From the NCBI GenBank assembly GCA_016278485.1, contig JADQBT010000002.1, forward strand, positions 229,601 through 293,600: a DNA stretch of 64,000 bases, written 5' to 3'. Positions 23,409 to 29,790 of this stretch are shown here, in pieces. Position 1 is the first letter of the stretch. Each line of letters begins with the position of its first letter. This DNA comes from Halanaerobiales bacterium. GTDB taxonomy: Bacteria; Bacillota; Halanaerobiia; Halanaerobiales; Halanaerobiaceae. The position numbers and the translations under genes are program-made. The notes beneath the pieces are model-generated. The model did not search any database. It was given only the letters and a program-made list of their open reading frames with translations, and was not told where the DNA came from.

Positions 23409-23433
23409 GACTGGATCAAATTAAGATCCAGTC
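23409..23433. terminator. Bidirectional terminator between amidase and SleB-like gene
   Basis: GACTGGATC (23409-23417) pairs with GATCCAGTC (23425-23433) over a 7-nt loop. The minus strand continues TTTTTCTTC, a good U-run that ends the rpsO-pnp-sleB unit; the plus side has only a short AT tail. Confidence 0.85.
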
Positions 23434-23438
23434 ATTAT

Positions 23439-24365
23439 CTATTTAGTAAAAACATGATCTCCAATCGTTACAACTAATTTCCGACCATCAAACCAACCAG
23501 TATTTGTAGCAGTCTCAGGATTATAAAAGTATAAGGAACCCATGGTAGGATCTTGACCGTTTAAAGCTGCTCTAGCTGCTTTATAAGAAGTACTATTTGG
23601 TCTAAGATTTATCTGCCCATCACCAACAGCAGAAAATTGTCTGTTTTGATAAACAACTTCAGTAATTGTATCAGGAAAGTAGTCACTTAATACACGATTT
23701 ATAATGACAGCACCTACTGCAACTTGACCTACATAAGGTTCACCTCTTGCCTCACCATGAATAGCTCGAGCAAGTACATTAAGTTGACTCTGATTTACAG
23801 TACGTTGAAGAACTTGTCTTTTAGAAAGATTATTAACAGGTAGCCAGATTTGATCACCTGTTCTAATAATACTATCTTGCATTTCATTAACTGCCATAAG
23901 TACCCCAATTGAAGTATTAAAAGCTCTCGCAAGATCAAAAAGTGTATCACCCTGACCCACATGATATTGGATCATTTTACTTTTAGGAATATTTACTTTA
24001 GGAATTTTCATGCCTGGATTAATCTGAACAGAATAATTATTCCCTATATCTAATTGAAAGTTGTTCATAATTTCTTCAGTATCTCGATATAATTGCAGGC
24101 CCCAATTTGGATTGTTGGAATCGTCATTATTTCTTTTCGGAATCACTAGTTCATCTCCAACTTTAATCCAGTGCTCCTTACCAATATTATTTAAATTTTT
24201 TATTTCTTGAACTGTTACACCATAATCTTCTGCAATTTCAGAAAGCGTATCACCTGACTGAACAACATATATTAAAGTAAACTCTGGCCCAGCAAATGAG
24301 ACAGAAGGACTGAGCAATATAAATAATGTCAATAAGAAAAAACTATAAATATAAATCTTTTTCAT
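23439..24365 (-). CDS. Cell wall hydrolase with two LysM repeats and a SleB-type domain
   Basis: A 308-residue exported protein. It has a signal peptide (about 1-25, ending SVSFAG), LysM 1 (about 33-76, YVVQSGDTLSEIAEDYG), LysM 2 (about 134-178, YHVGQGDTLFDLARAFN) and then a Hydrolase_2 domain (ARAIHGEARGEPYVGQVAVG). The Glu in HGEARGEP is the likely catalytic residue. SleB/CwlJ proteins digest spore cortex at germination, but LysM-SleB proteins also act on vegetative wall. It starts 3 bp after the helicase stop and closes the rpsO-pnp-nfo unit. Confidence 0.88.
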   Translation of the reverse strand: MKKIYIYSFFLLTLFILLSPSVSFAGPEFTLIYVVQSGDTLSEIAEDYGVTVQEIKNLNNIGKEHWIKVGDELVIPKRNNDDSNNPNWGLQLYRDTEEIMNNFQLDIGNNYSVQINPGMKIPKVNIPKSKMIQYHVGQGDTLFDLARAFNTSIGVLMAVNEMQDSIIRTGDQIWLPVNNLSKRQVLQRTVNQSQLNVLARAIHGEARGEPYVGQVAVGAVIINRVLSDYFPDTITEVVYQNRQFSAVGDGQINLRPNSTSYKAARAALNGQDPTMGSLYFYNPETATNTGWFDGRKLVVTIGDHVFTK

Positions 24366-24368
24366 AAA

Positions 24369-26831
24369 TCAGACCTCCTCCATCTTTCCAATATGTTTTT
24401 CCATAATATTTAAAGGCATTTTTCTAACTGGACAACCTGCAGGTAAAGAGTTTAAAAATTGTTTACCATAACTTTTGCTTAATACTCGTTTATCAAATAA
24501 AATTATAACTCCATGATCATTTTTAGATCTAATTAATCTACCAAATCCTTGTTTAAATCGTATAACTGACTTTGGTAAAGAATAATTATAAAAAGGATTT
24601 AAGCCTTGACTTTTAAGTAAATTTTCTCTAGCCTTAGCCAATGGTTCGCCAGGTACTGGAAAAGGCAATTTAATCATTATTACATATTTCAAATCATCCC
24701 CAGGAATATCTACACCTTCCCAAAAACTTGCAGTTCCAAAAATTATTTGCTTTGAACGCTCTTTAAATTTTTCCATTATATATCTTCTAGTAAATTTACC
24801 TTGTGCCAGGATGGTACTACCAACACTCTTGGCTAATTTTTTATCTAGCGCTTCATAAACCTCGTTTAACATTTGATAAGAAGTAAATAAAACCATAACA
24901 TTTCCACTTACAATCATTAATATTTTCTCTAAATACTTTATAACATCTCTTAAAAATTGATTTGAACCCGGTTCTGATATCTGAGCTGGAATAATTAATT
25001 CTGCCTGCTGCGAATAATCAAAAGGCGAATTAACAATCAATTCATCAGCATTTACTAAACCTGTATCCCGTTTAATGAAATCAAATTTTGCGTCAACTGC
25101 CAAAGTTGCAGATGTTAAAACTGTATTCTCCATTTTTGACCAGATTAAATCAGGTAGCAAATCACCTACTTTAAGTGGTGCTGATTTTTGCATAACTTGA
25201 TATGATTTTTTCTGATAATTTTTTTCTAACCAATAAACATAATCTGGCTTATCTGTTAAAATATTAAATTCTATCCTTTTATTTAAATCTTGTCCTCTTT
25301 TTATGGCTGATTCAAGTTCCATTGCATACTCATCATTTGTTAACTCAGTATCTTCATATAAAAAGTCATAAATTTGTTGCATAAAAAAAGTAGCATTATT
25401 TAGAAAACCCTGTAGCTTATCAGCTGTCAAATTAAAACTTTCCCATTCACTACTAGCTTTTAACTGATCGTCTACTGAAAGTTTATTCTCTTTGTTATTT
25501 GCAAAAAAACTAAGTAAATCAGAAAAATACTGTGGATATAAGTCATTTAATTTTTGTAAAACTGGAATTAACTTATGATCAACAAGTTTCAATACATCTT
25601 CTCCTGGATTATCTATAATAGTTATATCTTCTCTAATCTTACTAACAAGTGAATGTTTTTTTCCATGCAGTCTTTCCAACCATTTTTCTAATAAAGATTG
25701 CCAAAAATCATATCCTAAATGCTGGGTAGCTATTTCTTCAAAATTATGGGCTTCGTCAATAATTTGATGGTGATATTCTGGCAAAATACCTCTATCAGTT
25801 AGACCAGTATCCTTTTTTAATCTGACATCTGACATAAGTAGATGATGATTTACAACTAAAAGATTAGCCTGATAAATTTCTTTTCTGGCCTGCATAAAAT
25901 AACATTTTTTAAAATAAGGACACGCCATTTTTAAACAAAGATCACTTTCAGCACAAATTTTTTCCCACAAACTATGATTAATGCTAAAATTAATCTCTGA
26001 TTTTTCTCCACTAGCAGTATCATCCACCCAATCTAACAAATTATCTATTTGTTCTGCTTCTCCGTCAATTGCTGTTTTGCCACTAAGAAATCTTTTTTTG
26101 AAGTTTTCAAATTTTCTTAAACATAAATAATTTGATCTTCCTTTGACTAAAACAGCTCTAAATTCAAAAGGAAGTATTTTTGCAAGTAAAACTAGGTCCT
26201 TATTAATTAATTGTTCCTGCAAATTGATTGTATTTGTAGAAACTATTACTTTTTCATCATTCTTAAACGACCACCAGAGAGCAGGAATTAAATATGCAAA
26301 TGATTTCCCAGTGCCTGTGCCTGCTTCTATAAACGAGTTATTCTTCATATTAAAAGATTTTATGACTCTTTCAGTTACAATAATCTGTTCATCTCTTTCA
26401 GAGAAATTAGGCAAAACTTCTTCCAACGGACCATTTTTTTTCAAATAACTCGTAATTTCTTCAGCTGATAAACTGTTGCGACTTTTTACCTCTCCTGCTT
26501 CCACTACTATATAAATATCAGTAACAGAATTATTAATAATCGCAAAGCCAATCCCATTTTGCCCCAATCTGGAAGCAAGCCTAATATCTGCAGCAGAAGG
26601 AGTTAAATCACCAGAAGGATGATTATGAATAACCATTTCTCCTGATGACAAATTATTAATTACTGCAGGTGCCATAGAGTAGTTCCCTCTGGCAAGAACT
26701 TTAACTTCCCTAAATAAAGTCTGTTCTTTATTTAATCTTGCCTGTACAAATATTTCTCTGCCATCAGCATTATTTATTTCCTCACTTAAAGAATGATGTA
26801 CTGAAGACAGAATATCTTTAACCTCTTGCAA
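24369..26831 (-). CDS. DinG-like superfamily 2 helicase with N-terminal JAMM (RadC-type) domain
   Basis: An 820-residue protein. Residues 1-115 form a RadC/JAB-like domain with an intact JAMM signature: H69-N-H71-P-S-G, then S79 and D82. A DinG/XPD-type helicase follows with Walker A EAGTGTGKS (about 169-177). Four cysteines likely hold an iron-sulfur cluster (in SNYLC, ESDLC, MACP, KKC). The DEAH box is in IIDEAHNFEE, and the C-terminal motor has SFWEGVDIPGDDL and QGFGRLIRS. Most Firmicutes DinG proteins carry an exonuclease domain there instead. The start is TTG with AGGAGG 7 nt upstream. It follows nfo by 14 bp, which supports a DNA-repair role. Confidence 0.88.
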   Translation of the reverse strand: MQEVKDILSSVHHSLSEEINNADGREIFVQARLNKEQTLFREVKVLARGNYSMAPAVINNLSSGEMVIHNHPSGDLTPSAADIRLASRLGQNGIGFAIINNSVTDIYIVVEAGEVKSRNSLSAEEITSYLKKNGPLEEVLPNFSERDEQIIVTERVIKSFNMKNNSFIEAGTGTGKSFAYLIPALWWSFKNDEKVIVSTNTINLQEQLINKDLVLLAKILPFEFRAVLVKGRSNYLCLRKFENFKKRFLSGKTAIDGEAEQIDNLLDWVDDTASGEKSEINFSINHSLWEKICAESDLCLKMACPYFKKCYFMQARKEIYQANLLVVNHHLLMSDVRLKKDTGLTDRGILPEYHHQIIDEAHNFEEIATQHLGYDFWQSLLEKWLERLHGKKHSLVSKIREDITIIDNPGEDVLKLVDHKLIPVLQKLNDLYPQYFSDLLSFFANNKENKLSVDDQLKASSEWESFNLTADKLQGFLNNATFFMQQIYDFLYEDTELTNDEYAMELESAIKRGQDLNKRIEFNILTDKPDYVYWLEKNYQKKSYQVMQKSAPLKVGDLLPDLIWSKMENTVLTSATLAVDAKFDFIKRDTGLVNADELIVNSPFDYSQQAELIIPAQISEPGSNQFLRDVIKYLEKILMIVSGNVMVLFTSYQMLNEVYEALDKKLAKSVGSTILAQGKFTRRYIMEKFKERSKQIIFGTASFWEGVDIPGDDLKYVIMIKLPFPVPGEPLAKARENLLKSQGLNPFYNYSLPKSVIRFKQGFGRLIRSKNDHGVIILFDKRVLSKSYGKQFLNSLPAGCPVRKMPLNIMEKHIGKMEEV

Positions 26832-26845
26832 AATTATCCTCCTGA

Positions 26846-27682
26846 CTAATTTCTCATTTTTTTCAATAAAACTACATCTTCATCTGGTAATTCGTCAAAC
26901 CAGGGTGTTTCTAAAATAAAAGGCTTATCTTTTAACTTAGAGTGATTGATAATAGCTTTGACAGCTTCTTTACCAATATCACCTTCTCCAATATGGGCAT
27001 GTTCATCTTTATTAGTACCAATATCATGGCGAGAATCATTAAGATGAATAACTCGCAACTTATCTAGACCAATTATTTCATCAAACTGGGTTAACATTTT
27101 ATCAAGACCAGATTTAGTATGTAGATCATAGCCGGCAGCAAAGGCATGGCAAGTATCTAGACAGATACCAACACGTTCTTTATTTACTATATTATCTAAT
27201 ATCTGCTGCAATTGTTCAAAACTCGCTCCAATACTACTCCCGGCGCCAGCAACATTTTCTAGTAACAATAAAGTTCCATTTTCTACCTGAGCCAGGACAT
27301 CATTGATAGCTTTACTAATTCTTTTAATACCATCTTCTAAACCATCACCAGTATGGCTACCCGGATGTACTACTAAGTAATCCGCTCCAATTCTTCCAGA
27401 ACGACTGTAATCAGTAATTAAGCCATCAATAGACTTCTCCCATAAATCTTCTTTAGGAGAAGCAAGATTAATCAAATAGGTAGCATGTACCACTAATGGA
27501 GAGAAATTAAATTCGGATAATTTTTGTTTGAACTTATTCACTTCTTCATCTGTTAAATTACGTGCACGCCAGCCACGTGGGTTTTTAACAAAAATCTGCA
27601 GTGAATTACAACCTATTTCTTTCGCTCTAGCCACTGCTTTATCAAGTCCGCCTGCAATTGATACATGTTTACCTAAAATCAT
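26846..27682 (-). CDS. nfo: Endonuclease IV (AP endonuclease)
   Basis: A 278-residue class II apurinic/apyrimidinic endonuclease for base-excision repair. The trinuclear-zinc ligands are spread over the TIM barrel as expected: GKHVSIAGG, VVHATYLINLAS, VVHPGSH, LLENVAG, CLDTCHAFAAGYD, HLNDSRHDIG, HAHIGEGDIG and ILETPW. The length is normal. It lies 14 bp after pnp and 14 bp before the helicase gene, in the rpsO unit. Confidence 0.96.
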   Translation of the reverse strand: MILGKHVSIAGGLDKAVARAKEIGCNSLQIFVKNPRGWRARNLTDEEVNKFKQKLSEFNFSPLVVHATYLINLASPKEDLWEKSIDGLITDYSRSGRIGADYLVVHPGSHTGDGLEDGIKRISKAINDVLAQVENGTLLLLENVAGAGSSIGASFEQLQQILDNIVNKERVGICLDTCHAFAAGYDLHTKSGLDKMLTQFDEIIGLDKLRVIHLNDSRHDIGTNKDEHAHIGEGDIGKEAVKAIINHSKLKDKPFILETPWFDELPDEDVVLLKKMRN

Positions 27683-27696
27683 ATTTTCAACTCCAG

Positions 27697-29790
27697 CTAT
27701 TCTTTATCTTCTAGTTCTTTAAGAGCGTCTTTTCTCGATAAACTAATTTTACCTTGATTATCTACCTTTTTAACTTTAACTGGAATTTCATCACCAACAG
27801 AGATTTCATCTTCTACTTTTTTAACATGATAATCAGCTATTTCAGATATATGAACTAAACCTTCTTTATTAGGTAAAATCTCTACAAAGGCACCAAAATC
27901 AACTATATTTTTTACTGTGCCAGTATACATTTCACCGACTTCAACATCCTTTGTTAATCTTTCAATAATCTCTTTTGTGCGCTCTCCACTTTCTTGATCT
28001 TCTGTCATAATAAAGATAGTACCATCATCTTCTATATCTATTTTAGCATCTGTTTCATCAATTATACTATTGATCGTCTTTCCACCAGGACCAATAACAT
28101 GTCTGATTTTATCAGAATTAATTTTCATTTTAATTAAAGCAGGAGCATTTGCCGATAATTCAGCACGAGGCTCAGCAATAACTTCTAACATTTTGTCCAT
28201 AATATAGGCTCTGCCTTTTTGTGCTTTATTTAAAGCTAATTTCATTATCTCAGTTGAAATACCTTTAATTTTCATATCCATCTGTAAAGCTGTAATACCA
28301 TTTTTAGTACCAGCTACTTTAAAGTCCATATCACCATGGAAATCTTCAAAACCTTGGATATCAGAAAGTACCACTACTTCATCTTCATCTTTCATTAGAC
28401 CCATAGCAATTCCAGCAACAGGCTCTTTAATAGGAACACCTGCATCCATCAGTGATAAAGTACTACCACAAATACTAGCTTGAGAAGTAGAACCATTTGA
28501 TTCAAGCACTTCAGAAACTACTCTAATACTATAAGGAAATTCATCTTGTGATGGCAATACTGGTATTAAAGCTTTTTCACCTAGTGTACCATGGCCAATT
28601 TCTCTTCTACCAGGACCTCTAAGTGGACTTGTTTCCCCCACACTATATGGAGTAAAGTTATAGTGGTGCATATAACTTTTAGTCTCATTTTCTCCTAAGC
28701 CAAACAATACCTGTTCATCACTTGAGGCACCTAAAGTTACAACACTTAATGCTTGAGTTTGGCCTCTAGTAAATATACCTGAACCATGTGCTCTAGGTAC
28801 ATAGCCAACTTCACACCAAATTGGTCTTATCTCTTCTGCTGTTCTTCCATCAGGTCTCACCTTATCATGAATAATTAAACTTCTTACTTCTTCTTTTATT
28901 CTATTTTTATATATATTACTAATTTGAGAAGAAACATCACTATCAGAACCTGGATTAAGTTTATCTTCTAATTCAGCTTTCAAGGCATCAATTTTACTGT
29001 TTCTTAGCAGTTTATCTTTAATTTGAATAGCTTCTTTTAACCTGTTTTCAGTAAGATCTTTAATCCTAGTTTCCAAATCTTCATCCATTTCTGGTTCTTC
29101 AAATTCAAACTTTTCTTTACCAACCTCAGCAACCATATCTTTCTGAACTTGAACTAATTTTTTGATTTCTTGATGGGCAAGATCGATAGCTTCCAGAATA
29201 ATATCTTCGCTAACTTCATTTGCACCTGCTTCAACCATTAAGACTGCTTCTTCAGTACCAGCTACAGTGAGTTCTAAATCACTTTTTTCTTTCTCTTCAG
29301 CAGTTGGATTAATTATGTATTCACCATCAATATAACCAACCTTTGCTCCACCAATAGGACCATCAAAAGGTATATCAGATATTGCAAGTGCAGCTGAAGC
29401 ACCATTTAATGCCATCATCTCTGGATCACAATCATCATCAACTGATAATACAGTTGCAATTACCTGTACATCATGACGAAAACCATCCGGAAATAAAGGT
29501 CGTAAAGGTCTATCAATTAGGCGGGCTGCCAGAGTTGCTATATCGCGTGGACGCCCTTCTCTTCTATTAATACTACCTGGGATTTTACCAATCGCATATA
29601 TTCTTTCTTCGTAATTTACCATTAAAGGAAAATAACTAATACCTTTCCTCGGTTCAGACATAGTTGCTGTAACCAAAACAAGAGAATCACCATAACGTAC
29701 AACTACAGAACCATTTGCTTGTTTAGCAAGTTTTCCTGTTTCCATTGAAAATTCTTTACCATCTAAATCAGTTTTCCATTGATAAGTCAT
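27697..29790 (-). CDS. pnp: Polyribonucleotide nucleotidyltransferase (PNPase)
   Basis: A 697-residue phosphorolytic 3'-5' exoribonuclease. Two RNase PH domains are joined by a helical segment, with the active-site region in the second (GRREIGHGTLGEKAL, then FKVAGTKNGITALQMD). A KH domain (IGPGGKTINSIIDETDAKI) and an S1 domain (GTVKNIVDFGAFVEILP) close the protein. The ATG follows AGGAGG. The order rpsO-pnp is conserved widely, and the hairpin before it (29823-29862) may be a processing or autoregulatory site, as in other bacteria. Confidence 0.97.
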   Translation of the reverse strand: MTYQWKTDLDGKEFSMETGKLAKQANGSVVVRYGDSLVLVTATMSEPRKGISYFPLMVNYEERIYAIGKIPGSINRREGRPRDIATLAARLIDRPLRPLFPDGFRHDVQVIATVLSVDDDCDPEMMALNGASAALAISDIPFDGPIGGAKVGYIDGEYIINPTAEEKEKSDLELTVAGTEEAVLMVEAGANEVSEDIILEAIDLAHQEIKKLVQVQKDMVAEVGKEKFEFEEPEMDEDLETRIKDLTENRLKEAIQIKDKLLRNSKIDALKAELEDKLNPGSDSDVSSQISNIYKNRIKEEVRSLIIHDKVRPDGRTAEEIRPIWCEVGYVPRAHGSGIFTRGQTQALSVVTLGASSDEQVLFGLGENETKSYMHHYNFTPYSVGETSPLRGPGRREIGHGTLGEKALIPVLPSQDEFPYSIRVVSEVLESNGSTSQASICGSTLSLMDAGVPIKEPVAGIAMGLMKDEDEVVVLSDIQGFEDFHGDMDFKVAGTKNGITALQMDMKIKGISTEIMKLALNKAQKGRAYIMDKMLEVIAEPRAELSANAPALIKMKINSDKIRHVIGPGGKTINSIIDETDAKIDIEDDGTIFIMTEDQESGERTKEIIERLTKDVEVGEMYTGTVKNIVDFGAFVEILPNKEGLVHISEIADYHVKKVEDEISVGDEIPVKVKKVDNQGKISLSRKDALKELEDKE

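Follow-up and report, generated by a model that had tools for sequence, protein, structure and literature searches.

A RadC-like JAMM domain joined to an iron-sulfur DinG helicase in a Halanaerobiales bacterium and in many other bacterial phyla

Introduction

What does a JAMM-type zinc domain do at the head of a DNA helicase? The question is raised by a gene on contig JADQBT010000002.1 of a Halanaerobiales bacterium (GenBank assembly GCA_016278485.1), from which we analyzed a stretch of 64,000 nucleotides, here called the window. The N-terminal domain of its product resembles RadC. Whether radC has the DNA-repair phenotype first ascribed to it is disputed, and the literature is divided between a nuclease and a peptidase reading of the domain.

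Fusions of RadC with DinG/RAD3 helicases were discussed by Iyer et al. 2017 (PMC5512222). Cheng 2025 (PMC11981726) later named the "RadC-like DinG" subgroup, modeled on Desulfuromonas soudanensis, and described its E/H/H/D residues, its metalloprotease resemblance, and an extra C-terminal helix, alpha7, as in YoaA, stating that there was no research on it. The architecture was thus already on record in 2017 and received its name in 2025, and the present protein is a member of an uncharacterized kind, not a novel architecture. Our additions are a clade of fusion JAB domains, the co-occurrence of stand-alone RadC, and the conservation of the operon independently of the JAB domain.

Results

One polypeptide carries a RadC-like JAMM domain and a complete helicase

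The features of the locus are collected in Table 1. The gene coordinates given by the sequence-only reading proved correct; the strand, minus, had gone unmentioned. The TTG start codon lies at 26831 behind an AGGAGG at 26843-26838, and in the assembled genome the frame is uninterrupted by stops. Our analysis confirms that the architecture is real, with a RadC-like JAB/JAMM domain followed by a complete iron-sulfur DinG/XPD-type helicase in one polypeptide. The same single-frame architecture in 57 further distinct proteins, spread over many phyla, refutes the idea that two neighboring genes were merged through an error of sequencing or assembly; we found nothing in support of such an error and regard it as having a negligible probability.

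Table 1. Features of the RadC-like DinG locus, in window coordinates
Feature	Position	Strand	Basis or remark
RadC-like DinG gene, 820 aa	24369..26831	-	single frame, Pfam domains, TTG start with AGGAGG ribosome-binding site
RadC-like JAB/JAMM domain, residues ~13-112 (E26, H69, H71, S79, D82)	26496..26795	-	PF04002, AF2 model, fold matches
Codon of E26, predicted catalytic glutamate	26754..26756	-	present in all fusions but one
JAMM core H69-N-H71-P-S-G-D-L-T-P-S79-A-A-D82	26586..26627	-	alignment
Walker A motif AGTGTGKS, residues 170-177	26301..26324	-	alignment
Iron-sulfur cluster segment, C237, C299, C304, C310	25902..26123	-	invariant in 27 sequences; variants elsewhere
DEAH box, residues 359-362	25746..25757	-	alignment
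Helicase_C_2 (second motor) domain, residues 635-798	24438..24929	-	Pfam
Endonuclease IV family gene (AP_endonuc_2)	26846..27682	-	Pfam; 14 nt upstream of helicase gene; adjacency conserved in class
PNPase gene	27697..29790	-	translation; gene order conserved in class
LysM plus cell-wall hydrolase gene	23439..24365	-	3 nt downstream; last gene ahead of predicted terminator
Intrinsic-terminator-like stem-loop with T tail	23409..23433	-	consensus match only; 2 found vs 2.8 expected by chance

For the helicase part, Pfam placed DEAD at residues 154-211 and Helicase_C_2 with an E value of 2.2e-49, while DEAD_2 matched under its cut-off. The Walker A motif, the DEAH box, and the four cluster cysteines bear out the earlier description of a full DinG/XPD-type helicase. 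The cysteines do vary elsewhere in the family: C237 is Ser in five Gemmatimonadota members (L055, L057, L058, L061, and L066), and C299 is Ser or Thr in three other fusions (L059, L063, and L065). From its family, this part is inferred to be an ATP-driven 5'-3' motor on single-stranded DNA. Its model, from AlphaFold2 with a family alignment (mean pLDDT 86.5 for the whole protein), superposed on the DinG-ssDNA structure 6fws with a Z score of 38 over 631 residues (rmsd 7.0), and a terminal helix at 807-819, a candidate counterpart of YoaA alpha7, closes the model. It is the sole PF13307 helicase detected in its own genome, and most class members checked likewise have one DinG helicase only.

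The protein falls below the curated cut-offs for the better-known helicases of the family (NF053712, NF008729, and NF005981 [YoaA/DinG], at 557.3/680, 429.3/598, and 544/789 bits). It shares the iron-sulfur SF2 helicase core of E. coli YoaA and DinG, which have no JAMM domain, and the YoaA partner HolC is absent here: HolC (PF04364) was found in 0/8 fusion genomes, its own included, with E. coli and Caulobacter positive as controls. Like the S. aureus and B. subtilis enzymes (ExoDinG), it has an extra N-terminal enzyme domain at the equal position of a helicase of this family; theirs is a DEDD 3'-5' exonuclease in proteins of about 900 aa or more, whereas here a JAMM-type zinc domain heads a protein of about 820 aa. 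The ExoDinG profile TIGR01407 matched only from position 241 on (402.9/547.7 bits, below the cut-off), and the Pfam scan of the protein returned no exonuclease family. With the RadC-like DinGs of Cheng 2025 it shares the N-terminal RadC-like domain with E, H, H, and D, the JAMM-type fold, the MD1/FeS/Arch/MD2 helicase with the ATP site and CCCC kept, and the lack of a HolC partner; it differs in coming from Halanaerobiales and in lying in a conserved pnp-nfo operon, and is otherwise a plain member.

The zinc site is intact and nearly invariant

The RadC family PF04002 matched residues 16-111 of the whole protein above its curated cut-off (E 9.3e-8), matched the JAB domain scanned alone with an E value of 1.4e-9, and matched 30/30 fusion members scanned, so the RadC/JAB identification made from sequence stands. 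The signature H69-x-H71-x7-S79-x2-D82 is exact, residue for residue, in the alignment, and the fifth catalytic JAMM position, missed by the sequence-only reading, is present as E26. AlphaFold2 predicted a JAMM fold for the JAB domain alone with high confidence (pLDDT 93.2), so that both the signature of JAMM/MPN+ metalloproteases (E ... HxH-x7-S-x2-D) and their fold are present.

The closest structural matches of the JAB model were BubCD (Z 10.3), PfJAMM1 (9.7), an archaeal Rpn11 homologue (9.6), and RadC 2qlc (8.5). BubCD is a bacterial protein from a ubiquitin-like conjugation system. RadC came top both in Foldseek with the JAB model (E 6.1e-5) and in a profile search of PDB sequences with the domain (E 4.2e-9). 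The fold and the E/HxH/S/D metal site are thus those of PfJAMM1, Rpn11, AMSH, and BubCD, but the identity in structural alignments is 7-22%, and RadC-like DinG has no known ubiquitin-like substrate.

Across the fusions, E26, H69, H71, S79, and D82 are all intact in 57/58 distinct proteins (59 aligned rows, of which L020 and L039 are identical). The named-genome scan relied on two patterns, one of which contained HNHPSG, and this biases that half to intact sites; in the phylum survey, whose proteins were not found via the JAMM motif, the set is intact in 27/28. That survey was queried with the whole protein and ranked by overall similarity, so degenerate members could rank lower. Sequence and modeling together establish that the JAMM zinc-site residues are conserved across phyla. 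The one exception, L029 (G349:C34:49073-51325), carries R for E26, A for H69, and N for H71 but keeps S79, D82, and the helicase intact; a joint loss of E, H, and H is what one expects if the three form one site.

It is possible that the JAMM domain is mainly a structural or docking module for DNA or protein in which catalysis is dispensable, as the dead-site variant L029 and the retention of the helicase in JAB-less relatives (see below) might suggest. However, E/H/H/S/D stays near-invariant over many phyla while overall identity among the fusions drops to about 30-40%, the signature of selection for catalysis, and we hold a purely structural role to be improbable.

The fusion domain forms a clade apart from stand-alone RadC

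The resemblance to RadC claimed from the sequence holds in part: the domain is RadC-like, but it is not canonical RadC. A tree built from 59 fusion and 32 stand-alone JAB domains (few columns, unrooted) separates the fusions from the stand-alone domains at a branch whose support is 100. The two kinds share the JAB fold and an HNHPSG-x4-S-x2-D type motif; the fusion domains are helicase-attached and shorter, lacking the HPREVFKxAI helix that RadC carries before the zinc site, and RadC equivalog scores are far under their cut-offs (NF000642, 30.2/180; TIGR00608, 24.0/133.85 bits). The JAB part of the present protein is also acidic: its net charge per 100 aa is -4.9, whereas stand-alone RadC stands at -0.1 and the helicase part at 0.0.

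In 29/29 genomes searched (27 with the fusion and two with a helicase-only DinG), PF04002 had a hit of stand-alone size. Since stand-alone RadC is kept in fusion genomes, the fusion does not replace it. In the present genome it occupies a 233-aa frame; there is also a second, shorter RadC gene (149-aa frame, G000:C36:18508-18879, L032), and a fragment of RadC lies close to the end of a contig (G000:C10:170-331, L033). Elsewhere, a strong RadC-domain match within a 574-aa open frame (G282:C83:7512-7865) is possibly another RadC fusion.

The fusion is widespread, and the operon follows the helicase

In the survey of 398 genomes of the phylum, 27 further proteins had the two parts together in a single stop-free frame, a class survey of 59 genomes added further members, and the named-genome scan found the fusion in Thermodesulfobacteriota (Geobacter and kin), Gemmatimonadota, Sumerlaeota, KSB1, Fusobacteriota, Spirochaetaceae, Acidimicrobiia, and Myxococcota. 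The remark in the sequence-only reading that most Firmicutes DinG proteins have an exonuclease at this position agrees with the survey: most phylum relatives align only from about residue 120, and many of these have 900- to 1,000-aa frames, the size of exonuclease-DinG. A role in defense or CRISPR was considered and rejected, as PADLOC matches cover the helicase core only, the gene lies in a conserved chromosomal operon, and no viral contig matched the query in its JAB part and its helicase part at once. Compared with the CasDinG of type IV CRISPR, the protein scores 105.8/400 bits against the Csf4 equivalog and retains the four FeS cysteines.

The endonuclease IV gene and its upstream neighbor, whose translation is recognizable as PNPase, lie on the same strand as the fusion with 14-nt gaps and no predicted terminator between them, which bears out the operon read from the sequence; on the minus strand, no terminator was predicted ahead of 23433-23409. 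The order pnp - nfo - dinG - LysM hydrolase is repeated through the class, where flanks are short and some genes are out of view at some loci. The order persists where the JAB domain is absent: a JAB-less helicase occupies the pnp-nfo locus in G275 (family f5), in G439, G440, and G437 (f7), and in G401 (f145). In G435 (f7), the helicase likewise lacks the JAB domain, and its neighbors were not recognized. These six class helicases (L160-L165: G439, G440, G435, G437, G275, and G401) are thus visibly in pnp-nfo order in 5/6 cases. Two JAB-less helicase matches, G439:C7 and G436:C2, contain one TAA, probably from the alignment running upstream of the start.

The JAB-less relatives are not split genes: no JAMM motif lies beside the helicase at the six loci, and the JAB hits in these genomes are distant, all in frames of stand-alone RadC size. 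In the helicase tree, the f7 group and G275 are separate JAB-less lineages (at least two) among JAB-bearing ones; these are best read as probable losses of the domain. The tree needs four changes of JAB label, at least three of them forced by supported branches, and fits one fusion gain plus losses without demonstrating a single origin. The JAMM domain is an accessory lacking in some lineages, and the helicase is the constant part. Because the gene order is kept where the JAB domain is absent, it is the helicase that the operon connects with endonuclease IV and PNPase, and the operon is no evidence for such a tie of the JAB domain, contrary to what the sequence-only reading had suggested.

Outside the class, adjacency to nfo was seen at one further locus only (L028), and neighbor clustering over 31 named loci gave no family in more than four. 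This bears on the possibility that the JAMM domain acts as a peptidase or deconjugase on a specific partner, e.g., a ubiquitin-like or repair protein, and switches or recycles the helicase instead of clearing adducts. The intact zinc site and the top structural match, bacterial BubCD, speak for such a role; however, no widely recurring neighbor gene across phyla hints at a partner, and the domain lacks the helix found in RadC before the zinc site. We judge it distinctly unlikely.

Discussion

We tentatively favor, at somewhat less than an even chance, the reading in which an active zinc hydrolase, the JAMM domain, acts in cis with the motor and is most likely a peptidase that trims DNA-blocking or crosslinked proteins. 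The helicase part would move along single-stranded DNA in the 5'-3' direction, driven by ATP, and the JAMM peptidase beside it would trim proteins that block the DNA or are covalently attached to it (DNA-protein crosslinks), an arrangement that would be akin to the JAMM enzyme Rpn11 beside the proteasome motor. The top structural matches of the JAB model are JAMM peptidases, and the acidic character of the domain may weakly favor a peptide over a nucleic-acid substrate. Furthermore, mutation of dinG in E. coli confers hypersensitivity to the DNA-protein crosslinks that azacytidine induces but none to tight non-covalent complexes (PMC4437897), and DinG mutants of S. aureus show sensitivity to both mitomycin C and formaldehyde (PMC12345164). 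Against a peptidase, these crosslink phenotypes belong to DinGs without a JAMM domain, related DinGs carry a nuclease at the JAMM position (PMC12345164), and the JAB-less lineages get by without the domain. In the literature searched, we found no demonstration of peptidase activity for any RadC-clade JAMM domain, nor any activity of purified RadC.

Alternatively, the JAMM domain could be a nuclease. Its position equals that of the ExoDinG exonuclease, and Iyer et al. 2017 argued that RadC lacks the ubiquitin-tail groove and occupies the nuclease slot in fusions, favoring nucleic-acid processing (PMC5512222); Zhang 2012 also provides arguments for this view. Crosslink resistance by S. aureus DinG needs both helicase and nuclease (PMC12345164), and the single DinG helicase of most class members checked would fit the same reading. 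However, the literature searched yielded no JAMM domain with nuclease activity, the DALI search of Cheng 2025 gave metalloproteases and zero nucleases for the RadC-like domain (PMC11981726), our own search returned JAMM proteins too, and the domain is acidic. We therefore consider a nuclease rather unlikely. The peptidase-type zinc site, the crosslink-linked motor, and the acidic JAB domain together lead us to rank the protein-adduct peptidase somewhat above it.

A more specific proposal, which we regard as unlikely, is that RadC-like DinG is a motor-coupled DNA-protein crosslink protease, in which the helicase would travel to the adduct and the JAMM domain would cut the protein.

Taken together, a single polypeptide here joins a RadC-type JAMM domain, whose catalytic set is strongly selected, to a motor of known type. 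The dead-site L029 protein is a natural control, and so are the relatives within the class that have a JAB-less helicase at this locus. If the crosslink-protease proposal is true, the RadC clade would gain its first biochemical function, and bacteria would have a helicase-fused counterpart of SPRTN and Rpn11.
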